This document shows positions 11,881 to 22,431 of a stretch of 64,000 nucleotides of DNA, one piece after another. Each line of letters starts with the position of its first letter. The stretch's first letter is position 1. The stretch spans positions 1 to 64,000 of the forward strand of contig JAAYUV010000034.1 in NCBI GenBank assembly GCA_012517475.1, given 5' to 3'. Origin of the DNA: Peptococcaceae bacterium (GTDB lineage: Bacteria > Bacillota > Desulfitobacteriia > Desulfitobacteriales > Syntrophobotulaceae). Made by a program: the position numbers and the translations under genes. The notes under the pieces are model-generated. The model searched no databases. It saw only the letters and a program-made list of their open reading frames with translations, and had not been told where the DNA came from.

Positions 11881-12576
11881 TAAATATGCAAACTGCATGT
11901 TTATTCAAGAACAAGTAAGTTTCTTTTGGGCTATGGAACGTTATTCTAGTGCACAAAACGGGCGTTCGAGGGCGGGCCTAAGAATCCGCTAAGGGCATAC
12001 CGATGAAGTTCCTGGTGGTGGCTTGGGACGCCCAGTCATGGGCTGCTGCTGGGAGTTAAGGACTTAGGGGGATCTGCAATGGCATGTGGGCGCTACCCTT
12101 TGTCCGTGGAGGCCCATGTTCGTGGCTTGATTTTAAGCTATGACTTGGGGATGAACCTGCATTAGGAAGGAACTTAGTGCAGTGTAGCCTGCCTTGAGGT
12201 GGGGAAGTTGGGAAGGCGTGAGATGGTAAATTGGTGTTGGCAAACACGAATTTATCTGCCAGAAATTCTTTTCTGCAAAAGAGGCTAGGACGTCCGGGAG
12301 TGTAAAGGAAAACTTCTAGAGCGTTTTTATTAAAAAGGATTGAAGTGCGGACTAAGTGGTGATCAAGTTCTGAAAGTGGCAACACTTCAGACCTGGAGGA
12401 AGGGGAAACCGCCTTAGGGGAAACCCTGGGGATCCCGGTGGGAAAACCTACTTGACCTAAGCCGCAACATTTACTTTTTAATATCCTAAGGTCCAAAAGA
12501 CTTTTACTTCCATCGTAAATCATCATGTATTTAATAGGGAAACTTTGCGAAGTAAAATCATTTGCTTCGCTTTTTT
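11881..12576 (+). ncRNA. Large structured RNA, candidate OLE-class RNA
   Basis: This 870-base gap (11717-12586) has no credible gene on the plus strand. From about 11940 it turns markedly G-rich and shows many self-complementary stems, e.g. a long hairpin around 12225-12262 closed by ggca, ctgaaagtg-gcaa-cacttcag near 12372 with a GNRA loop, aggg-gaaa-ccct near 12416, gccca-gtca-tgggc near 12030, and ctgcattag / cttagtgcag near 12158. It ends in a strong terminator at 12547-12576, giving a transcript of 600-690 bases. A 10-bp hairpin at 11881-11903 may be the 5' end. Size, ornate folding and host type (anaerobic Firmicute) fit OLE RNA, but that identity is from general recall, not alignment. 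The promoter is unclear. Confidence 0.6.
12547..12576 (+). terminator. Terminator of the large RNA
   Basis: Perfect 10-base-pair stem (gcgaagtaaa / tttgcttcgc, one G-T pair) with a 4-base loop at 12547-12570, followed by TTTTTT. It points in the plus direction, away from the convergent activator gene that ends at 12587. Confidence 0.85.
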
Positions 12577-12586
12577 ATTTTGGTCA

Positions 12587-14710
12587 TTATTTGCCTGCCA
12601 ATTCGTTCTCTTTTATATATGATAGAAACAACTCACCTTCCCTGGTGATCTTGCTCCCTTGTCTTGTCTTTCCCGCTTGGACGTAACCCATTTCTTCAAG
12701 AATCTTCAGCAATTGACGTACTTTATGATCCGCGAAATCTTCGCCGCAGTTGTGAAGTGCACGTTGAAGAGACTGTCGTCCGATGCCTTTATTGAGAAAA
12801 GAGACCTTAGAGACTTCGGTAAGGATGAAAACAACGGGTTTAAGCAGTTCCTGTTTCTGCAATTGTATCATGATTTGTTCATTGTTAGTCTCACAAATGG
12901 GGGAGATTTTTTCCCGCACAGGTCTTTTTTCCATATTCCTAATCATATAGGGTGGGATATGTCTGATCGTTGCAGTCTCATCCGGTCCAATGATGCTGCA
13001 AAGGTATTTAGCCACATTCTGCAATTCGCGAATATTTCCTGGCCAGCGGTAGTCTAAGAGAAAATTTTTCAATGGGGGCTCAAAAACCAGTTCACGGTTA
13101 TATGCTTTTTGTGTGAAATAATTGATGAGCACAAAAACGTCTTCTCCGCGGGCACTAAGGGGTGGAATTGTAATGGGCAGGGCACATAAACGATAAAATA
13201 AGTCTTCCCGGAATTTCCCCTCACTAATCAGCAACTCAAGATTCTGGTTAGTAGCAGCGATCACTCTTACATCCACCGGTGTCAGCATATTGCTTCCAAC
13301 ACGGCGTACCTTTTTTTCCTCCAAGACCCTCAAAAGTCTTTTTTGAACCTCTAATGAGGCATCGCCAATCTCATCCAAAAAAATTGTTCCCAGATGGGCT
13401 TCCTCAAACAGGCCCGCTTTTCCGCCTTTTTTTGCCCCGGTAAATGCTCCGTCATCATAGCCAAACAATTCACTCTCTACCAGATTTTGCGGTAATGCTG
13501 CAAAGTTGATGGCAACAAAAGGTCCTTCTTTTCTCTCAGAATAATTGTGTATAGCTTCAGCAAACAGTTCTTTTCCGGTTCCGCTCTCTCCTTGAAGGAG
13601 TATTGTCAGATCTGTCCTTGCAAATTTTTTAGCTTGTGTTAATGCTGAAATCAAAATGCCGGAATGACCAACAATGTGACTGAAAGTTGCTTTTGCCACA
13701 TTGCAGTTGTTTTTTAGTTCCCGCCTAACTTTGGCTTCCAAGTCTTTAACCTGGACAACCGGCCGGAAAGTCGCGACTGCGCCTTTGGCAAATCCTGATT
13801 CGTCCCGGAAAGGATTGGTACTGACAATGTAATAACTCCCGTTAATTCTCTTAATCTCGTTGGCAATTCCTTCCTCAGTATGAATGCAAGCTAAAAAATC
13901 AACCTGTGGAATCACTTCGGTTGCGTCGCGATCAAAGGCCTGAATCCAATTAATTTCCAGAAGTTTTTGCGCTACCGGATTGAAGACAATGATTTTATTC
14001 TTTTCATTAACAGCTACAATGGCCTCATCGACCGTGTTTAAAATGACTTCCATCTTGTGCTTCAATTCATTATTCTGGGCAGCCATTTTATATTGATTGA
14101 TGCTGAGGTTAAGAATCGCTTGAATATAGTAATGGGAGATTTCATTAATTAGTGTCATCGGTAGCTTAAGAAGTTGAATAAGCTGGGCGAAGGTTGAAAT
14201 ATCAATGCTCCTTGCGCCAATATCAATGACTTTCTTAATTCTGCGGGGCACGAGATAGTCTACTCCCGGCGTAATTGCACATGCAATATCCTCAGGAAGT
14301 AGTCCCCTCTGCTCCATTTCACAGCCTGGATAATACGGTATGAGATCAAGAAAGCTGAAGCCCAGTTTTTTAATAATATTAATGGTAGAAAGGGCAGCTT
14401 CTTCCCAGATCCCAACAACAATAGCTCTCGTTCCCGGGGCGAGTTCCAACAGTTTGTCAAGATGTTCGCTGTTGATGATGCGCTCAGCAACTAAATAATG
14501 TTTATGGGGAGGAAGCTGGCTCTTAACGACTTGAAGGATAGTTGAACTTGCTGCTACGTAGATATCACAGGTCGGATAAGGCAAGATGTCTTCATGCTGA
14601 AGACACCATACTTTTACCTCAATATAAGCGCCCAAGAATTTCATTAACTGTTTAGCAATAAAATTACAGGTTGATTCACTGTTTCCAATATAGCAAACAA
14701 TTTTTTTCAT
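12587..14710 (-). CDS. PrpR-type sigma-54-dependent transcription activator
   Basis: Enhancer-binding protein expected to activate the adjoining carboxylate cluster. Domains in order: a PrpR_N-like sensor (about residues 1-195), a PAS domain (about 215-320), and the AAA+ domain (about 340-575) with Walker A GESGTGKE near 370 and the sigma-54-contacting loop GAFTGA near 423, Walker B IFLDEIGD and the sensor stretch RWPGNIREL. The last 100 residues lack an obvious Fis-type helix-turn-helix. They look like a winged helix instead (HKVRQLLKILEEMGYVQA), which is unusual. It is the last gene of the minus-strand cluster, 125 bases after tctA. A matching -24/-12 promoter lies at 22416. Confidence 0.88.
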   Translation of the reverse strand: MKKIVCYIGNSESTCNFIAKQLMKFLGAYIEVKVWCLQHEDILPYPTCDIYVAASSTILQVVKSQLPPHKHYLVAERIINSEHLDKLLELAPGTRAIVVGIWEEAALSTINIIKKLGFSFLDLIPYYPGCEMEQRGLLPEDIACAITPGVDYLVPRRIKKVIDIGARSIDISTFAQLIQLLKLPMTLINEISHYYIQAILNLSINQYKMAAQNNELKHKMEVILNTVDEAIVAVNEKNKIIVFNPVAQKLLEINWIQAFDRDATEVIPQVDFLACIHTEEGIANEIKRINGSYYIVSTNPFRDESGFAKGAVATFRPVVQVKDLEAKVRRELKNNCNVAKATFSHIVGHSGILISALTQAKKFARTDLTILLQGESGTGKELFAEAIHNYSERKEGPFVAINFAALPQNLVESELFGYDDGAFTGAKKGGKAGLFEEAHLGTIFLDEIGDASLEVQKRLLRVLEEKKVRRVGSNMLTPVDVRVIAATNQNLELLISEGKFREDLFYRLCALPITIPPLSARGEDVFVLINYFTQKAYNRELVFEPPLKNFLLDYRWPGNIRELQNVAKYLCSIIGPDETATIRHIPPYMIRNMEKRPVREKISPICETNNEQIMIQLQKQELLKPVVFILTEVSKVSFLNKGIGRQSLQRALHNCGEDFADHKVRQLLKILEEMGYVQAGKTRQGSKITREGELFLSYIKENELAGK

Positions 14711-14835: not shown

Positions 14836-16350
14836 TTAGGCTTCATCAGATTCCCTTTCCTTATAGGCCCCATGCTTAATGATGTGATAGACCTGGAAAG
14901 CGGTGACAATGCAGAAGATAGCAGAAAGAGTCAGGGAAATCGGGCGTTGGAAGAAAATGAGCCAGCTGCCTTCCGAAAGGGAGAGGGATTGCCGAAGAGC
15001 TTCCTCCATCATTCCTCCGAGAATTGTGCCTAAGAGGAGGGGAGGCAATGGGAAATCAAGTTTACGCATGACATAGCCCAGAACACCAAACAGCAGCATA
15101 ATCCACAGACTAAACAGACTATTGGACAGACTGTAGATTCCCAGTACCGAGAGTACGCAGATAAAGAGAGACATCACCGCATAGGGAAGGCGCAGGATTT
15201 GCATAAATAAGGATATGAGCGGCAGATTTAAGATAAGCAGCATCACATTGCCGATATACATACTGGCGATCAAGCCCCATACTACATCGGGATGGAGTTG
15301 AAATAACGTTGGTCCGGGACTGATACCGAGGAGCATAAAACCGCCGAGCAAGACTGCGGTAGAACCCCCGGCCGGAATACCAAGAGTAAGCAAAGGAATA
15401 AACCCGCCTGCCGCAGAACCGTTGTTGGATGATTCCACGGCAGCAACCGCAGGCATATGTCCGGTGCCAAATTTCTCTTTGGTTTTGGAAATAGCTTTTT
15501 CAATACCATAGGTAATAAATGTACCGATGGTTGCTCCGCCGCCAGGCAGACATCCAATCCCAAATCCGACGAGGGAACCGCGTAAGATAGGGAAAATACT
15601 TTCTTTCCAGTCAGATTTTGAAGGCAATAATTCTCTAACCTTAAATTTTTTCAATTGGGTAATAGGAATTTGCATCACTTCAAGGTTGCATAGTATTTCA
15701 GCTACTGCAAAAAGTCCGATGGCAACGACGACAAACTCGATTCCATCCATTAACCCGATAACGCCAAATGTAAACCTGGCCTCACCGGTCAAGCGGTCAA
15801 TGCCGATTGTGGAGACCATAAGACCAATCACCGTGGAAATCAGCCCTTTAATGATGTTGTTGGTAGATAAAGCGGCTACTAAGGTGAAAGAAAGGGTCAT
15901 CAATGTAAAGTATTCCGGCGGTCCGAACTTAATGGCAAGTTTGGCCATGGTAGGAGCTAAGAATCCTAACAGGACAAGTCCTACGGTGCCCGCAATGAAG
16001 GATCCGAAAGCTGCAATTCCCAGCGCGGCTCCGCCGCGCCCCTTTTTGGCCAGTTCATATCCTTCTACCGCCGTCATGACGGAAGAAGACTCACCCGGAA
16101 TATTGGCGAGTATTGAGGTGGTGGATCCGCCATACATTGCGCCATAATAAATACCTGCCAGTAAAATAAGGGCACTGGCAGGGTCCCGTCCAAAGGTGAG
16201 CGGCAAAAGAACAGCAATCCCTGTTACCGGCCCCACACCCGGCAGAACGCCAATGATTGTCCCCACCGTAACACCAATCAAAGCCCAAAGAAGGTTCATT
16301 GGAGTTAAGGCGATACTAAATCCGTAGAATAGTTGCTCTAATCCGTCCAT
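14836..16350 (-). CDS. tctA: Tripartite tricarboxylate transporter, large membrane subunit
   Basis: TctA-family permease, about 504 residues with roughly a dozen hydrophobic segments, which moves the substrate handed over by the periplasmic-type binding protein. The conserved glycine-rich signature PGVGPVTGIAVLLPLTF is near residue 38, and a second one, GCLPGGGATIGTFITYG, near 265. It starts 15 bases after tctB stops, with GAGGAGGCC ahead of the start. The substrates of this family include citrate, tartrate and other di- or tricarboxylates; here the neighbouring aconitase-like enzymes point to a citrate-like acid. Confidence 0.95.
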   Translation of the reverse strand: MDGLEQLFYGFSIALTPMNLLWALIGVTVGTIIGVLPGVGPVTGIAVLLPLTFGRDPASALILLAGIYYGAMYGGSTTSILANIPGESSSVMTAVEGYELAKKGRGGAALGIAAFGSFIAGTVGLVLLGFLAPTMAKLAIKFGPPEYFTLMTLSFTLVAALSTNNIIKGLISTVIGLMVSTIGIDRLTGEARFTFGVIGLMDGIEFVVVAIGLFAVAEILCNLEVMQIPITQLKKFKVRELLPSKSDWKESIFPILRGSLVGFGIGCLPGGGATIGTFITYGIEKAISKTKEKFGTGHMPAVAAVESSNNGSAAGGFIPLLTLGIPAGGSTAVLLGGFMLLGISPGPTLFQLHPDVVWGLIASMYIGNVMLLILNLPLISLFMQILRLPYAVMSLFICVLSVLGIYSLSNSLFSLWIMLLFGVLGYVMRKLDFPLPPLLLGTILGGMMEEALRQSLSLSEGSWLIFFQRPISLTLSAIFCIVTAFQVYHIIKHGAYKERESDEA

Positions 16351-16365: not shown

Positions 16366-16866
16366 TTATCTGAAAGTTTCCATAAACATAGGCAGCGGAA
16401 TGCGTAAGGCTATTTCAAAAATAAGAAATCCTAAAACAGCCATCGCAACAGCCGGGACAAGCGTTTTTAGGAACCTGAACCCGTATAAAAGCATGAGGTA
16501 TCCAATACCAAACAGGATGGTATCAATGATAAAACCCAGGTAGGGCAGTAACACCAAATAGACGCCTAAAACAACCAGACCTTTTACAATTCTCTTTACA
16601 CGATTGGCTATAGGCTCTTGAATTTTTTCAACATCGCTTTGTACTGAGGCAGCTTCTTCCGGGGCATCCTCCAGCGATTTGCTTTTCTTGCCGGCGGTGA
16701 TAAAGAGCAGGATGGACAAAAATCCAAGGATAGTAGCAAGAAACATTGGAAAAATACCGGCGCCGATTTCATATTGTAATGCTGCGCGGGGTATCCTCCA
16801 TGCATTGACAAAAACAAAAAGCGCCAAGCAGATTAATACCACGGCTGATTTACGGTCATGGCCCAA
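16366..16866 (-). CDS. tctB: Tripartite tricarboxylate transporter, small membrane subunit
   Basis: A 166-residue protein with four predicted membrane segments (AVVLICLALFVFVNAW near the N-terminus, a second near 40-60, and two in the C-terminal half), the shape of TctB. A charged cytoplasmic loop separates the second and third segments. The start is TTG, supported by GGAGGT upstream. It lies between tctC and tctA, the usual order. Confidence 0.88.
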   Translation of the reverse strand: MGHDRKSAVVLICLALFVFVNAWRIPRAALQYEIGAGIFPMFLATILGFLSILLFITAGKKSKSLEDAPEEAASVQSDVEKIQEPIANRVKRIVKGLVVLGVYLVLLPYLGFIIDTILFGIGYLMLLYGFRFLKTLVPAVAMAVLGFLIFEIALRIPLPMFMETFR

Positions 16867-16936: not shown

Positions 16937-17902
16937 TTATTTTGCAAATGCTTTTTTGTATAATTCTGTTTTGGCGGTAATGGTTTTTTGGAATTCAGCA
17001 GAACCCTGGAAGGCTGGAATTTGCATGTTGGCAGTATATGTTTTCTTGTACTCAGGGTCTTCCAGCGCTTTTTTGATAGCATCTTCTAAAATTTTCACAA
17101 TCTCATCCGGCGTATCTTTAGGTGCGGCGATTCCGCGGAATTTATCAATAGAAAGGTCCGGATAGCCCTTTTCGGCAAAAGTAGGGATGTCTGGCGATGC
17201 CGGATTGCGCTGTGAGTTAAAGGACATAAGAATTTTTACCTGTTTGGCATCAAGCTGGGGTTTAATTTCCGCGATTTCGGCGACACTCGCCTCAACATCT
17301 CCGCCGAGTACAGCGGTCAAGGCTTTGGATCCATCTCCCATGAGAACGGAAGATATTTTGGCATTATGTTTTTTAATCAGGGTATCAATTACCGCGGTTT
17401 CGGGAGTTCCGGCCTGAGAAGCGGCCCACTTGATATTTTGTTTACCTTTAAAGATTGCTTCCAGCATAGAATCTGCAGTCCATTTACTGTCGGCACGGAC
17501 ATACAAAACATTGGGGTCAAGCACAACCCGTGCAACCGGCTTAAAAGAACTTAAATCCTTTGGAATATTATTGTTGATTGGGGTAATGATCATAGTATCG
17601 GTTATCCCAAGCAGGGTATAGCCATCGGGTTTGGACTCGGCGACATACTGCAGGGCAACTGCGCCGGAACCGCCGCTCCTGTTGTCAATTACGACGGTGT
17701 TACCTGTTGCGGTCTGAATAGCTTTCCCCAGTTGACGGGCGAAAACATCGCCGCCGCCGCCCGGTGCAGTGTGAGCGACTAAGGAAATAGCTTTATTCGG
17801 GAATTTTTCTTTGGCAGGGGCAGCCGCAGGCTGATTGGCACAACCTGCAACTAATACCAATACCAACAGAATACTGATCACAAGAGTCGAAATTTTCCTC
17901 AT
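16937..17902 (-). CDS. tctC: Tripartite tricarboxylate transporter, substrate-binding lipoprotein
   Basis: Bug/TctC-family extracytoplasmic binding protein, 321 residues. The N-terminus is a lipoprotein signal peptide ending in the lipobox VAGC (Cys near residue 20), so the mature protein is membrane-anchored, as expected in a Gram-positive. The family motif APGGGGDVFAR is near residue 47 and VIDNRSGGSGAVA near 75. It is the first gene of the transporter set, 169 bases after the unknown Cys-rich gene. The ligand cannot be told from sequence. Confidence 0.93.
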   Translation of the reverse strand: MRKISTLVISILLVLVLVAGCANQPAAAPAKEKFPNKAISLVAHTAPGGGGDVFARQLGKAIQTATGNTVVIDNRSGGSGAVALQYVAESKPDGYTLLGITDTMIITPINNNIPKDLSSFKPVARVVLDPNVLYVRADSKWTADSMLEAIFKGKQNIKWAASQAGTPETAVIDTLIKKHNAKISSVLMGDGSKALTAVLGGDVEASVAEIAEIKPQLDAKQVKILMSFNSQRNPASPDIPTFAEKGYPDLSIDKFRGIAAPKDTPDEIVKILEDAIKKALEDPEYKKTYTANMQIPAFQGSAEFQKTITAKTELYKKAFAK

Positions 17903-18071: not shown

Positions 18072-18707
18072 TTAGTTGGCTTCAGAAGAGCTTTTGTTTT
18101 TCTCCAATATTTCCACGCACCGCACGGGGTTAAAGATGCCGCAATAGCAGAAATTGGCCAGTTTAATCGCCCCTTCTTCGGCGGTAAGACGTCCTTTCAC
18201 GACCTGTTCCCGTACATGTTGTACAAATTTGGGAGGGATCATGTGGTGTCCGCACATCGTAGTCACAGACAAAGTCACATCATCGGGCAAATTTTCTTTC
18301 TTGCCCCATATCCCCAAGGAATAATTAATGGAATGGGGTGTTACACCGGCCTCTTTACAGGCTGGAATGACTTCTGAAAGAATCCCGGCAATCACTACCG
18401 ACATACCTGTTTCTTTTGCTTTGACCAGTTTAAGAAACTCAACAACTTGCTCGCTTTTCGTAAAGACTCCCCTCAGACGGGACTTATCCGAAAGTTTATC
18501 CTTAATTTCTTCGACACTGCAGCTGGTGATAGGCCCGGTTTTGACATCACCCCAGTTTTCAGAGCCACAGGCTTCTGCCGCAGCAATGAACTCAAGGGCC
18601 TTTGGTTTAATGTCCTTATCATTTACTCCTTTGGTCTGGTACATAAACCAGACGAAGTCTCTCTTTTGCGATTCAATTTCTCCTGACCGGTGCAGGGAAT
18701 GAGTCAT
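18072..18707 (-). CDS. Unknown Cys/His-rich cytosolic protein of carboxylate cluster
   Basis: I do not recognise a named family. The 211-residue product has no signal peptide or membrane segment. Conserved-looking Cys/His groups are spread along it: AACG, TSC, TTMCGHHMIPP, NFCYCGIFNPVRC. These could bind metal or an iron-sulfur cluster, but no standard spacing is met. The middle part (MSVVIAGILSEVIPACKEAG, then SINYSLGIWG) reads like a TIM-barrel or Rossmann-type alpha/beta core. I place the start at ATG 18707, which follows AGGAGGGATTAAT. An upstream in-frame ATG at 18731 would overlap the previous gene. Being 11 bases after the ferredoxin-domain gene suggests the two act together in catabolism of the imported acid. 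Confidence 0.7.
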   Translation of the reverse strand: MTHSLHRSGEIESQKRDFVWFMYQTKGVNDKDIKPKALEFIAAAEACGSENWGDVKTGPITSCSVEEIKDKLSDKSRLRGVFTKSEQVVEFLKLVKAKETGMSVVIAGILSEVIPACKEAGVTPHSINYSLGIWGKKENLPDDVTLSVTTMCGHHMIPPKFVQHVREQVVKGRLTAEEGAIKLANFCYCGIFNPVRCVEILEKNKSSSEAN

Positions 18708-18718
18708 ATTAATCCCTC

Positions 18719-19453
18719 CTAATCCAAGCATAGAGGACGTCCAAGTCCGACATTTACCTTGCCCCGGTGGGGCTGAGGAATGGATAGTTCATTCAGACAG
18801 TCGAGTACATTCGTCTCACCGTCTTCATTAACCCGAAGAATCAAGCCTAACGAGAAAACGGTATCGATTTCCCGCTCGACCTTTTGTAATGCTTTTAGCA
18901 CGTTGCTCAGCAGGGTTTCCGGGCATTTGGCCTCGACGATTACAGAAAGCAAGTGATAATGGAGGCATTCCTCCACTAATTCACCGGTCTTGAGGTCCTT
19001 CATTAAGGCAGCCAGAGGGGTATGCTCTGCCGATTGGAGTTCTGCACCAGCTGCGGCTAAGGCCATGGCTACTTTTGAGGCATCCCTGAGATAGACTCCC
19101 ATTCCCGGCCTGCCCATATCGATACAGATACCAACTTCACCTTTTTTGATTCTCCCTGAGACATCATTTGTTTTTACTTCTTCCGTCCCCCTGCCTGTAA
19201 CTCCGGTCACACCATGATTTTCGACCGGATCACTAATGACATGCTGGAACAGCTTATAAAAGTTATCCAACTCGACGGGTTCAATGGCTTCATGTTTGCA
19301 AACCCGTTGTCGTAGACAAACATAACACTCCGTACAGCGGTTCTGGTCTATGCGGCATTTTTTTATCGTTACATCATAAATAATCGCATCCACCGTGCAA
19401 TAGGTCTGACATGCTTTACATCCGTTACATTTTTCGGTATTAATGACACTCAT
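18719..19453 (-). CDS. Ferredoxin-like protein with unrecognised C-terminal domain
   Basis: About 244 residues. The first 60 residues hold two cluster motifs: CNGCKACQTYC (CxxCxxCxxxC), then CTECYVCLRQRVC with a longer last gap. The remaining 170 or so residues form an alpha/beta domain I cannot name (GICIDMGRPGMGVYLRDASKV near 110, VGLGRP at the end). It might transfer electrons to or from the dehydrogenase or an aconitase-like partner, but this is inference. ATG 19453 is preferred over TTG 19459 because AAGGGTGA sits six bases before it. It lies between the LeuD-like gene and the unknown Cys/His-rich gene in one operon. Confidence 0.75.
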   Translation of the reverse strand: MSVINTEKCNGCKACQTYCTVDAIIYDVTIKKCRIDQNRCTECYVCLRQRVCKHEAIEPVELDNFYKLFQHVISDPVENHGVTGVTGRGTEEVKTNDVSGRIKKGEVGICIDMGRPGMGVYLRDASKVAMALAAAGAELQSAEHTPLAALMKDLKTGELVEECLHYHLLSVIVEAKCPETLLSNVLKALQKVEREIDTVFSLGLILRVNEDGETNVLDCLNELSIPQPHRGKVNVGLGRPLCLD

Positions 19454-19490: not shown

Positions 19491-20000
19491 TTACTTACCC
19501 ATCTGGTTTTCAAGGTAGGGGATAAGTCCGCCTAACTGAATGTACTCAAGCATAAATTCCGGCGGCTTGGTAAACTCATAATTTCTGCCGAGGGCATGAT
19601 TTGTAATCACGCCTTTTTCCAGATCTACTTCCACCCGGTCTCCCTCCGAAGTCTCTTCGACCAGCTGAGGACAAATAAGCGCAGGTATCCCAATATTAAA
19701 ACAATTGCGGTAAAATATTCTGGCAAAAGACTTGGCAATGACTACCCTGATCCCGGCATATTTCAGAGCCTGAGGCGCCTGCTCGCGGCTGGAACCGTAA
19801 CCCAGGTTCTCACCGGCAGCAAAGATATCTCCAAAGCGGACCTGCGCTGCAAATTTGGGGTCACAGCCTGCCATACAGTTTGCGGCCAATTCATGAGGTT
19901 CCACTTCAGTCATAAAGCGGGAGGGCAAAATATGATCGGTACTTATGTTATCTCCAAATTTCCACAATCGCCCTGAGTAAATCAATTTGTCAGCAACCAT
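19491..20000 (-). CDS. Aconitase-like hydro-lyase, small (swivel) subunit
   Basis: LeuD/homoaconitase small-subunit family, about 170 residues. The opening GRLWKFGDNISTDHILPSRF and the YGSSREQAP substrate-binding loop near residue 70 are the family signatures. It pairs with the LeuC-like subunit directly upstream. I place the start at ATG 20000 because a GGGGG stretch lies 9 bases before it; an in-frame ATG at 20009 would overlap the preceding stop. No other leucine genes are nearby, so a role in leucine synthesis is not supported; the context favours isomerisation of an imported hydroxy-acid. Confidence 0.9.
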   Translation of the reverse strand: MVADKLIYSGRLWKFGDNISTDHILPSRFMTEVEPHELAANCMAGCDPKFAAQVRFGDIFAAGENLGYGSSREQAPQALKYAGIRVVIAKSFARIFYRNCFNIGIPALICPQLVEETSEGDRVEVDLEKGVITNHALGRNYEFTKPPEFMLEYIQLGGLIPYLENQMGK

Positions 20001-20001
20001 T

Positions 20002-21261
20002 TCATACATCCCCCAGCAAGTTTCTTGGATCGGTAATACAGCCTGTTACGGCACTGGCTGCAACTGTCAGGGCGCTGGCAAGGTAGATCTTACCTCCAAC
20101 CCCCATGCGTCCTTCCATATTGCGGGTAGTAGTGGAGATACATACCTCTCCCGGAGCAAGGCAGCCTACTTCATATCCGCCGCAGACGCCGCACGAAGGC
20201 GAACTGATGATAGCTCCCGCTTTCAACAATGTATCAATAATCCCTGACCGCACTGCCGCTGCCATAACATGTGAGGTATTGGGAACAATCACAAAACGCA
20301 CACCGGGGGCTATTTTTCTCCCTTTAAGAATCTTGGCAGCCTGCTCCAGGTCGTGATAAAAAGCACCGGAACATGAACCCAAGGCTGCCTGGTGAATCTC
20401 AGTTCCTGCGACATCCGTCACGACTCCCCCGCTGGTAGGGAGCGGGGGAGTCGCCACCATAGGCTCGAGGCTGGAGACATCAAAATGGATAACAGCCACA
20501 TATCTCGCATCCGGATCGGCAGAAATGATCTCCTCCTGGGCAGAACCTGCCCCAATTTTAGCAAGCAGCCGACTATCAACAGGCATGAGTGCATTTTTCA
20601 CACCCATCTCCAAACTCATCACTGTAATGACCATTCTTTCATCGAGAGTCAGTTTATCGATTAGGGAACCTTCAAACTCTACCGCCATATAATTAAGGAA
20701 GGAGGGCCCAAAATGCTTCAGTATCAACAGGGCTACGTCTTTAGAGCATATTCCCGGCGATAGTTTGCCATTCAGTACAATCTTAATGGTTTCCGGAACT
20801 TTCATCCATATTTTTCCTGTTGCTAAGACTGCGGCCATTTCGGTTGAACCAATTCCGGTTGCTAAGCAGCCGAATGTTCCTAAGCCAACGGTATGAGAGT
20901 CGGACCCTACAACAATGTTGCCCGGACGGGGAATCCCTTCTTCTGCCATGACAGGGTGAGAAATCCCCCTGCCGACTTCAATCAGATGACACCCATATTG
21001 TCCGGCGAAATCCCTGATATTCCGATGGTGTTGAGCAGCCCGGATCGTTGATGATGGTGAATGATGATCAAGAACAAAGTAGACCTTATCGGAATCCCAT
21101 ACTTTAGCCAGTGGCAGCTTAGAAAATTGCTGAATAGCAATTGGACCGTTATTATCGTGAATAAAGGCTACATCTACTGGAACTTCAATGATTTGGCCCG
21201 GAGTAATATCTTTTCGATTGGTTTTATACGATAGGATTTTTTCCGTTACTGTCAGGCCCAA
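20002..21261 (-). CDS. Aconitase-like hydro-lyase, large subunit (LeuC/HacA family)
   Basis: Iron-sulfur hydro-lyase of the 3-isopropylmalate/homoaconitate dehydratase type, 419 residues. Conserved pieces include DHHSPS near 65, GSDSHTVGLGTFG near 118, and the paired cluster cysteines in SPSCGVCGG near 357. The first cluster cysteine lies in GSCSGA near 295, where LeuC and HacA normally read GSCTN(G/A), and RNMEGRMG replaces the usual RNFxGRxG. These changes sit around the active site and suggest a different substrate from isopropylmalate. The start is TTG after AGGGGGA. It is 20 bases behind the dehydrogenase gene and next to the small subunit. Confidence 0.9.
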   Translation of the reverse strand: MGLTVTEKILSYKTNRKDITPGQIIEVPVDVAFIHDNNGPIAIQQFSKLPLAKVWDSDKVYFVLDHHSPSSTIRAAQHHRNIRDFAGQYGCHLIEVGRGISHPVMAEEGIPRPGNIVVGSDSHTVGLGTFGCLATGIGSTEMAAVLATGKIWMKVPETIKIVLNGKLSPGICSKDVALLILKHFGPSFLNYMAVEFEGSLIDKLTLDERMVITVMSLEMGVKNALMPVDSRLLAKIGAGSAQEEIISADPDARYVAVIHFDVSSLEPMVATPPLPTSGGVVTDVAGTEIHQAALGSCSGAFYHDLEQAAKILKGRKIAPGVRFVIVPNTSHVMAAAVRSGIIDTLLKAGAIISSPSCGVCGGYEVGCLAPGEVCISTTTRNMEGRMGVGGKIYLASALTVAASAVTGCITDPRNLLGDV

Positions 21262-21281: not shown

Positions 21282-22367
21282 TTACTGCAGCTTTTGAATT
21301 GTTTCACAGATCGATGCACCCATTTGTTCAGTAGAAGCGTCTCCTCCTAAATCCGGCGTTACCAGTTGTAAATCATCCAGTACTTTGTCTATGGCGAGTT
21401 CAATATCGCGCGCAGCTTGAATCGCCCCCTGATCTTGTTTTTTGTTTCCGAGCCAGGAAAGCATCATTTGTGCCGACATGATCATGGCATATGGATTAGC
21501 GATATGCTTACCGGCAATATCCGGAGCGGACCCGTGGGTAGCCTGGGCCATGACGTATTTATTACCTACGCAAAGACCCGGGGCCATTCCTAATCCTCCG
21601 ACAAGTCCGGCCGCTTCATCTGTTAAAATATCGCCGAACATATTTGTCGTTACTACAACGTCAAACTTTTGCGGCCGCATCACCAGATTCATGGCAAAGG
21701 TGTCTACGACCATTGTGTCAAAGGTTATGTCCGGATACTCTTTGGCAACTTCCCTGCATGTATCTACAAATAGACCGCAGCTCATTTTCCAGACAGTATT
21801 TTTATGAATGGCCGTCACTCTTCGGAGCTTATTGCGCTGCTGTGCAACTTCCATCGCCGTCCTGGCTACCATTTCGGAGTTCCGTCTGGTGATTACTCGC
21901 GCAGAGAGAGCCATATCCGGAGTTGGCATAAACTCGCCGACTCCTTTGTACATATTCCGGTCCGGCTGAAATCCTTCATTATTTTCCCTGATAATCACGA
22001 CATCAACATTCTTATGTAAGCTTGGCAGGTTGCAATAAGACTTTGTCGGTCGAACATTGCTGACCAGATCGAATTGCCGGCGCAATATAGGATGAGGGTT
22101 AACGGCTTTGGGATCGTCTTTGGGGTAATTCATATGTCCAATAGGGCCGAGAATCCAGCCGTCCAGCTCATACAAAGTATCCAATGTGATTTGGGGCAAC
22201 GTTTCGCCCGTTTGCTGGTAAGAAACATATCCCACCGGCAGCGGAACCCAGTCTATTTGCACATCCTGATACCTTTTTACTGCACATTGCAGGACGTCAA
22301 CAGCAACGGGAACAATCTCCAAACCAATATCATCTCCGTTTAGAATTCCAATTTTGTATTTGGCCAT
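21282..22367 (-). CDS. Beta-decarboxylating dehydrogenase (isocitrate/isopropylmalate family)
   Basis: NAD(P)-dependent oxidative decarboxylase of a 2-hydroxy-3-carboxy acid, 361 residues. Family features: the GDDIGLEIVP opening, the arginine-bearing LRRQFDL and NVRPTK strands near 95-107, the catalytic lysine region HKNTVWK near 190, and the metal-binding TNMFGDILTDEAAG near 240. After ENNEGF, where relatives usually have the catalytic Tyr, this protein reads Gln, although a Tyr occurs six residues later; this may shift the chemistry. It is the first gene of the cluster, directly behind a sigma-54 promoter. Isocitrate, homoisocitrate, methylisocitrate or a tartrate-like acid are all possible substrates. 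Confidence 0.88.
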   Translation of the reverse strand: MAKYKIGILNGDDIGLEIVPVAVDVLQCAVKRYQDVQIDWVPLPVGYVSYQQTGETLPQITLDTLYELDGWILGPIGHMNYPKDDPKAVNPHPILRRQFDLVSNVRPTKSYCNLPSLHKNVDVVIIRENNEGFQPDRNMYKGVGEFMPTPDMALSARVITRRNSEMVARTAMEVAQQRNKLRRVTAIHKNTVWKMSCGLFVDTCREVAKEYPDITFDTMVVDTFAMNLVMRPQKFDVVVTTNMFGDILTDEAAGLVGGLGMAPGLCVGNKYVMAQATHGSAPDIAGKHIANPYAMIMSAQMMLSWLGNKKQDQGAIQAARDIELAIDKVLDDLQLVTPDLGGDASTEQMGASICETIQKLQ

Positions 22368-22415: not shown

Positions 22416-22431
22416 AGCAAGAGTGATGCCA
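22416..22431 (-). promoter_or_regulatory. Sigma-54 (-24/-12) promoter of the carboxylate cluster
   Basis: On the minus strand the sequence TTGGCATCACTCTTGCT matches the RpoN consensus (TGGCACGNNNNTTGCW) at TGGCA and TTGCT with exactly 10 bases between GG and GC. The expected transcription start is about 40 bases ahead of the dehydrogenase start codon. A PrpR-type sigma-54 activator is encoded at the end of the same cluster. Confidence 0.8.

Follow-up and report, generated by a model that had tools for sequence, protein, structure and literature searches.

Reductases of the IspG/IspH type are ferredoxin-dependent, with electrons passing from NAD(P)H through a flavoprotein and a ferredoxin to a three-Cys [4Fe-4S] cluster and from there to the substrate. 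The CDGSH/mitoNEET proteins, in turn, are 3Cys-1His [2Fe-2S] proteins with the motif CxCx2(S/T)x3PxCDG(S/A/T)H. The window analysed here, meaning the whole stretch of 64,000 nucleotides from a Peptococcaceae bacterium, carries two adjoining genes, one for a ferredoxin-fused protein (FD) and one for its partner, a Cys/His protein (CGH). The pair would share the electron scheme of the IspG/IspH-type reductases, CGH having three invariant Cys and a putative cluster, but its organisation differs in that FD is a separate partner. No sequence relative in the PDB and no fold match for CGH at E <= 0.001 pointed to these reductases, although absence from a list of matches is not exclusion. With CDGSH/mitoNEET, CGH has in common a candidate ligand set of three Cys and one His, with a CxC pair, but the order is reversed (MCGH, then CxCG 35 residues on) and there is neither a CDGSH motif nor a Pfam match.

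Residues 1–64 of FD share their fold and eight cysteines with clostridial ferredoxin, AprB and the C-terminus of HdrA, whereas FD also has an x5 spacing in its second cluster motif, a C-terminal domain that is absent there, and an obligate partner in CGH. The PII-like regulators SbtB and CPII resemble CGH in a ferredoxin-like alpha/beta fold and in having transporter neighbours; the fold similarity is weak, however, and CGH adds a helical Cys/His part and a ferredoxin partner. Finally, clusters of Ni-CODH, CooF and FNOR, as they appear in passages of two CODH papers (PMC6344411, PMC8776680), are comparable to a large group of FD-CGH loci in operons with CooF, a CODH-like gene and a flavoprotein gene, except that the CODH-like protein beside FD-CGH is short with few conserved Cys; the passages matched within these papers contain no FD-CGH-like partner pair. 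Our literature search found no paper describing the pair, and a paper on a fluoroacetate operon (PMC10838667) was set aside as unrelated. The type of machine, a ferredoxin-linked redox enzyme, is already familiar, and CGH and the C-terminal domain of FD fit no described family, fold or system searched.

Results

FD and CGH lie in a run of genes on the minus strand of the window, which is listed here from its upstream end:

22416..22431, minus strand: sigma-54 (-24/-12) promoter-like site, TGGCATCACTCTTGCT (consensus match, not proof)
21282..22367, minus strand: isocitrate/isopropylmalate dehydrogenase family protein, first gene of the predicted operon (PF00180, E 2.7e-84)
20002..21261, minus strand: LeuC/aconitase-type hydro-lyase large subunit (PF00330; NF001614 above cut-off)
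19491..20009, minus strand: LeuD/DmdB-type hydro-lyase small subunit (TIGR02087 above cut-off)
18719..19453, minus strand: FD, a 2[4Fe-4S] ferredoxin domain with a C-terminal domain of ~180 residues, 244 aa
18072..18707, minus strand: CGH, the Cys/His partner of FD, 211 aa (true start 18707)
16937..17902, minus strand: TctC-type substrate-binding protein of a tripartite tricarboxylate transporter (PF03401, E 3.4e-38)
16366..16866, minus strand: TctB-type small membrane subunit (from position and clustering with TctB homologues)
14836..16350, minus strand: TctA-type large membrane subunit (PF01970, E 2.3e-158)
12587..14710, minus strand: sigma-54-dependent activator, probable operon regulator (PF00158, E 2.9e-66)

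The gaps from the dehydrogenase through LeuC, LeuD, FD, CGH, TctC, TctB and TctA to the activator are 20, -8, 37, 11, 169, 70, 15 and 125 bases. The promoter-like site is the sole exact sigma-54 match in the window and stands 48 bases upstream of the dehydrogenase gene, and terminator-like hairpins are found upstream of the operon (22652-22628) and just past its end (12547-12570). From the gene order, the sigma-54 site and the flanking hairpins we infer that these genes are co-transcribed, with the 169-base gap before TctC wide enough that another start could be accommodated, and FD-CGH most likely belongs to a single catabolic operon under sigma-54 control that includes a carboxylate importer. 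The promoter-like site also agrees with the presence of a sigma-54 activator at the other end of the operon.

Within the pair, the distance of 11 bases given in the earlier note is borne out, as the ATG of CGH (18707) follows the stop of FD (18719) on the same strand. The start at 18731 in the list of open reading frames is too early, and ATG 18707 is preferred; it has a good ribosome site (AGGAGGG) and opens the conserved N-terminus of the CGH family, MTH[ST]LHR. FD itself runs from ATG 19453 to its stop at 18719, and most of the over-long FD reading frames found among its relatives had wrong upstream starts. The parts of the two proteins referred to below are as follows:

19397..19429, minus strand: FD motif 1, CNGCKACQTYC, of the form CxxCxxCx3C (Cys9/12/15/19; kept in 138-139/139)
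19298..19336, minus strand: FD motif 2, CTECYVCLRQRVC, of the form CxxCxxCx5C (Cys40/43/46/52; kept in 139/139)
18722..19258, minus strand: FD C-terminal domain with invariant GRGTEExKTN, GRP, P146, E174 and GKxNxGLG (alignment of relatives)
18246..18257, minus strand: CGH MCGH motif, Met151-His154, with Cys152 and His154 as probable metal ligands (149/149)
18138..18149, minus strand: CGH CxCG motif, Cys187-Gly190, with Cys187 and Cys189 as probable metal ligands (both Cys 149/149)

The N-terminal domain of FD scores above the Pfam cut-offs for Fer4 and Fer4_2, and residues 1–64 are, by sequence and by fold (Z 8-9), an ordinary 2[4Fe-4S] ferredoxin. All eight cysteines are retained across 139 FD sequences (one of them in 138). 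Both cluster motifs are thus present as first described, and the last spacing of the second, which had been thought unusual, is x5 in 112 of the 139 proteins, x7 in 23 and x4 in four, making CxxCxxCx5C the normal form within the family. Against the curated NCBIfam ferredoxin subunits (AprB, PorD/KorD, RnfB and others), the best score of FD was with aprB, at 30.9 bits where the cut-off is 135.65. The C-terminal domain had resisted placement before and does so still, with its ~180 residues matching no family in Pfam or NCBIfam and no meaningful chain in a profile search of the PDB. Arg88, Glu92, Lys94, Arg115, Glu174 and Lys232 of this domain are retained among the 139 sequences. A ferredoxin-like core is common to the models of this domain and of CGH; the idea that the domain is a duplicate of CGH was dropped, as their profiles show no similarity (hhalign probability 0.3 percent).

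In CGH, Arg7, Gly135, Met151, Cys152, Gly153, His154, Cys187, Cys189 and Asn193 are invariant in 149/149 sequences, and His3, His6, Asp17, Asn29 and His125 nearly so; Met151 varies in some archaeal members from loci beyond this set. The CxC pair follows Cys152 at a spacing of 35 residues in 148 of 150 proteins. The groups MCGHH, CYCG and NPVRC that had hinted at metal binding are all present, and their Cys152, His154, Cys187, Cys189 and Asn193 are among the invariant residues, but the second His of MCGHH is free to vary (G/H/A/S). Chance does not account for these motifs, since MCGH and CxCG..N vary little or not at all across the family. To judge from the alignments, the three Cys with the His suggest that CGH binds a metal or Fe-S cluster, and the many conserved charged residues of CGH and of the FD C-terminal domain that a ligand or substrate is bound. 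The CGH of the window had no consistent significant match in Pfam, NCBIfam or PHROGs (the last queried with this protein alone), 30 diverse relatives gave nothing beyond scattered single weak hits in Pfam and NCBIfam, and neither single-sequence nor profile searches against PDB sequences returned anything meaningful.

AlphaFold2 models of both proteins were confident (mean pLDDT 92 for CGH and 89 for FD). In the CGH model the N-domain is alpha/beta and ferredoxin-like and the C-part is helical, with the MCGH and CxCG loops of this C-part each flanked by confident helices. Foldseek found no match to the PDB at E <= 0.001 for either model, and no enzyme can therefore be named by analogy. With VIA-align, the CGH N-domain reached Z 6.5-7.4 over ~75-87 residues against SbtB/CPII; ferredoxin-like domains, PII-like ones included, gave Z 6-7.5, and such values are usual for a common fold. 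For FD, the VIA-align rows cover only the ferredoxin part, and CPII was among the weak Foldseek hits. The FD C-terminal domain and the helical part of CGH showed no clear fold relative in these searches, which probed both weakly. The profile search and structure prediction proposed in the earlier note, which took the two for proteins without recognised function, have thus placed neither CGH nor the FD C-terminal domain in a family, or in a fold at E <= 0.001, and clear matches to described families were sought and none found.

The link between the two proteins, on the other hand, extends far beyond the window. FD is the immediate same-strand neighbour of 159 of the 163 CGH genes at the loci examined and precedes CGH in 154, the junctions being mostly within 20 bases or overlapping. 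Each of the other four is readily explained: L076 stands at a contig end, L065 is a tandem of FD-CGH-CGH, the C-terminus of FD can still be made out in a masked stretch at L121, and L181 has 0.7 kb in which no gene was called. The pairwise distance matrices of FD and CGH correlate with r = 0.87, compared with a mean r of 0.44 and a maximum of 0.67 when partners were swapped among paralogues of the same genome (300 trials), and it follows that FD and CGH were duplicated and inherited as a unit. Such co-inheritance alone is no proof of contact, and is partly explained by tight linkage. An apparent gene fusion of the two (L096, 9158-10630, a reading frame of 490 residues) goes out of frame mid-way and is likely an assembly frameshift. 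Two or three different FD-CGH pairs stand in tandem within one operon at seven loci (L065, L073, L075, L081, L103, L105, L169), and the pairs of one operon often come from distant branches of the family.

CGH was found in 12 of 61 related genomes and in 27 of 398 across the phylum, with up to seven copies in one closed genome and FD duplicated alongside. Among 84,980 species genomes there are at least 468 confirmed relatives, a lower bound given the strictness of the motif scan (peptide TMCGH[GH][ML][IV]), and these belong to Bacillota, Desulfobacterota, Synergistota, Chloroflexota, Aminicenantes and archaea. Within the class of the Bathyarchaeota genome, CGH occurs in 25 of the 151 genomes drawn, once on a closed chromosome, which shows that the archaeal copies are not stray contamination. 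The window's own genome holds a second pair on contig C111 (L143, G000:C111:53263-55989), in an operon of CooF, a short CODH-like protein, FD, CGH and a flavoprotein.

A TctA gene (PF01970) lies within 8 kb of 48 of the 80 CGH genes in 36 genomes, where ~1.9 would be expected; this association is one of proximity (8 kb) and not of shared transcripts. The remaining 32 copies have no TctA nearby, and 41 of the 130 TctA genes in these genomes are near CGH. Co-variation of CGH with TctC is weak (r 0.31, against 0.24 expected from the species effect). In operon-like units with FD-CGH, TctA is present in 54 of 132, and 17 of the 132 consist of a transporter, a regulator and FD-CGH alone. Eighty loci from the motif scan were picked by similarity to the query, which inflates the counts of the query's own subfamily. 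Other importers beside the pair are TRAP transporters. The neighbouring enzymes are mostly those of hydroxy-acid or sugar-acid metabolism (HIBADH, PdxA, Ldh_2, IDH, Zn-ADH, IlvD, CoA-transferase III and D-serine-dehydratase-like proteins), and are too diverse for any single reaction to be named. LeuC and LeuD each occur in 8/132 units, and the pair stands beside many other enzymes or none, from which we conclude that it is a portable module. Of the redox or activation step in the window's pathway that had been proposed for the two proteins, a redox role therefore fits, but a role specific to LeuCD and the dehydrogenase does not hold.

Low-potential redox genes form the other recurrent setting. 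An AOR, a MoaD and a ferredoxin gene adjoin FD-CGH in bacteria and in Bathyarchaeia-class genomes (in the order FD-CGH-ferredoxin-MoaD-AOR at L210, L211, L215, L216 and L223), and the setting of CooF, a CODH-like protein and a pyridine-nucleotide flavoprotein recurs, with a CODH-like gene at 18 loci. In a Dehalococcoides sp. JdFR-56 MAG (L122, 7864-9987), a Fer4_20 + Pyr_redox_2 NAD(P)H flavoprotein is inserted into FD between its ferredoxin part and its C-terminal domain; this is a real insertion and ties FD to NAD(P)H electrons.

Judged on its sequence, the CODH-like neighbour is not a normal Ni-CODH, as the group keeps neither the full set of B- and C-cluster ligands nor the full length. 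Most members have 420-530 aa, and four N-terminal Cys alone are conserved across the 18; the copy in this genome, which has three proper CODH genes elsewhere, scores 46 bits against a CODH model cut-off of 478. The group is mixed, as one member (L180) still has some of the C-cluster cysteines. By comparison, the passages matched in PMC6344411 state that only CODH sequences without deletions in the D-, B- and C-clusters and the catalytic residues were used there.

Discussion

The near-constant pairing, the lack of a described family and the importer and low-potential redox neighbours indicate that FD-CGH is probably an uncharacterised organic-acid redox enzyme. More specifically, we give about even chances to its being a two-subunit iron-sulfur redox module that acts on imported (hydroxy)carboxylates, with lower confidence in any named reaction than in the module itself. 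FD would carry electrons through its two [4Fe-4S] clusters, and its C-terminal domain, predicted to be alpha/beta and rich in invariant Arg, Lys, Glu and Asn, would combine with the Cys152/His154/Cys187/Cys189 site of CGH into an active site around a metal or Fe-S centre. The substrate, a carboxylate and probably a hydroxy-carboxylate, would be imported by the tripartite tricarboxylate or TRAP transporter and then reduced or oxidised, with low-potential electrons swapped between it and ferredoxin or, in some operons, NAD(P)H by way of the flavoprotein. The operon-specific copies and the minimal units of transporter and FD-CGH argue that the pair acts on the imported compound and not on one partner enzyme, and each copy in a genome may be specialised for the substrate of its own operon.

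Other readings account for part of these findings. FD-CGH could be an activation or maturation factor, one that uses reduction to build or mend the metal centre of an enzyme encoded nearby, of the LeuCD type here and AOR or CODH-like elsewhere. The pair does adjoin enzymes of the Fe-S, W or Ni type, both in the window and in the AOR and CODH-like operons, and a ferredoxin is a usual part of reductive activators; we nevertheless hold this to be unlikely, as the 17 units of transporter, regulator and FD-CGH leave no client enzyme, most neighbours (HIBADH, PdxA, Ldh_2 and Zn-ADH families) have no need of Fe-S repair, and operon-specific paralogues, up to seven per genome, would be unusual for a maturase. 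The same copies, along with the many invariant charged residues, suggest substrate binding, and so speak against a mere electron-transfer adaptor that links dehydrogenases to the pools of ferredoxin or NAD(P)H but lacks a substrate site. Links to three types of low-potential redox module and to many NAD-dependent dehydrogenase genes would suit an adaptor, but the 17 units have no oxidoreductase beside the pair, and of all the readings this is the one to which we give the least credence.

The exactly three invariant Cys and one His of CGH would also be in keeping with a non-redox Fe-S lyase, hydratase or isomerase acting on carboxylates, in which a three-cysteine cluster in CGH is an aconitase-like Lewis acid that FD does no more than keep reduced, and the adjoining carboxylate importers and many hydroxy-acid enzymes of the operons are in its favour. 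An obligate ferredoxin partner with two clusters, the fusion to a flavoprotein and the links to AOR and CODH-like genes point instead to real electron traffic, making this quite unlikely. Very unlikely, too, is a role in which FD-CGH senses redox state and gates the importer of carboxylates through regulatory PII/ACT-like domains: the transporter linkage is strong, and the CGH N-domain and FD C-terminal domain do resemble the ferredoxin-like fold of PII-like transporter regulators, yet the SbtB/CPII Z-scores are what any ferredoxin-like fold may give, many copies stand without a transporter beside AOR or CODH-like genes, and so many invariant charged residues would be unusual in a sensor.

The redox module acting on imported carboxylates may, tentatively and with clearly less assurance, be taken a step further, to a new class of ferredoxin-dependent enzyme in which a Cys-x-His...Cys-x-Cys centre of a kind not seen before, formed by CGH together with the FD C-terminal domain, would reduce, dehydroxylate or oxidise imported hydroxy-carboxylates. 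Were this so, anaerobes would have a widespread way of handling organic acids that has been overlooked, each transporter operon having its own tailored copy. An enzyme of this kind would fill an unannotated step in anaerobic organic-acid breakdown and help to show which substrates belong to the many orphan tripartite tricarboxylate transporters. FD-CGH is common in anaerobes, yet beyond the ferredoxin domain it is absent from the curated libraries searched, and its invariant residues and minimal operons make it directly testable.

Two further neighbours were seen. Beside the archaeal AOR sets there is often a divergently oriented gene that was taken, by eye, for a glycerate kinase, and these sets with the kinase suggest a link to chemistry of the glyceraldehyde/glycerate type. 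A short M29-peptidase-like protein (~325 aa, PF02073) adjoins FD-CGH together with TctCBA at five loci (L063, L066, L079, L180 and L188).
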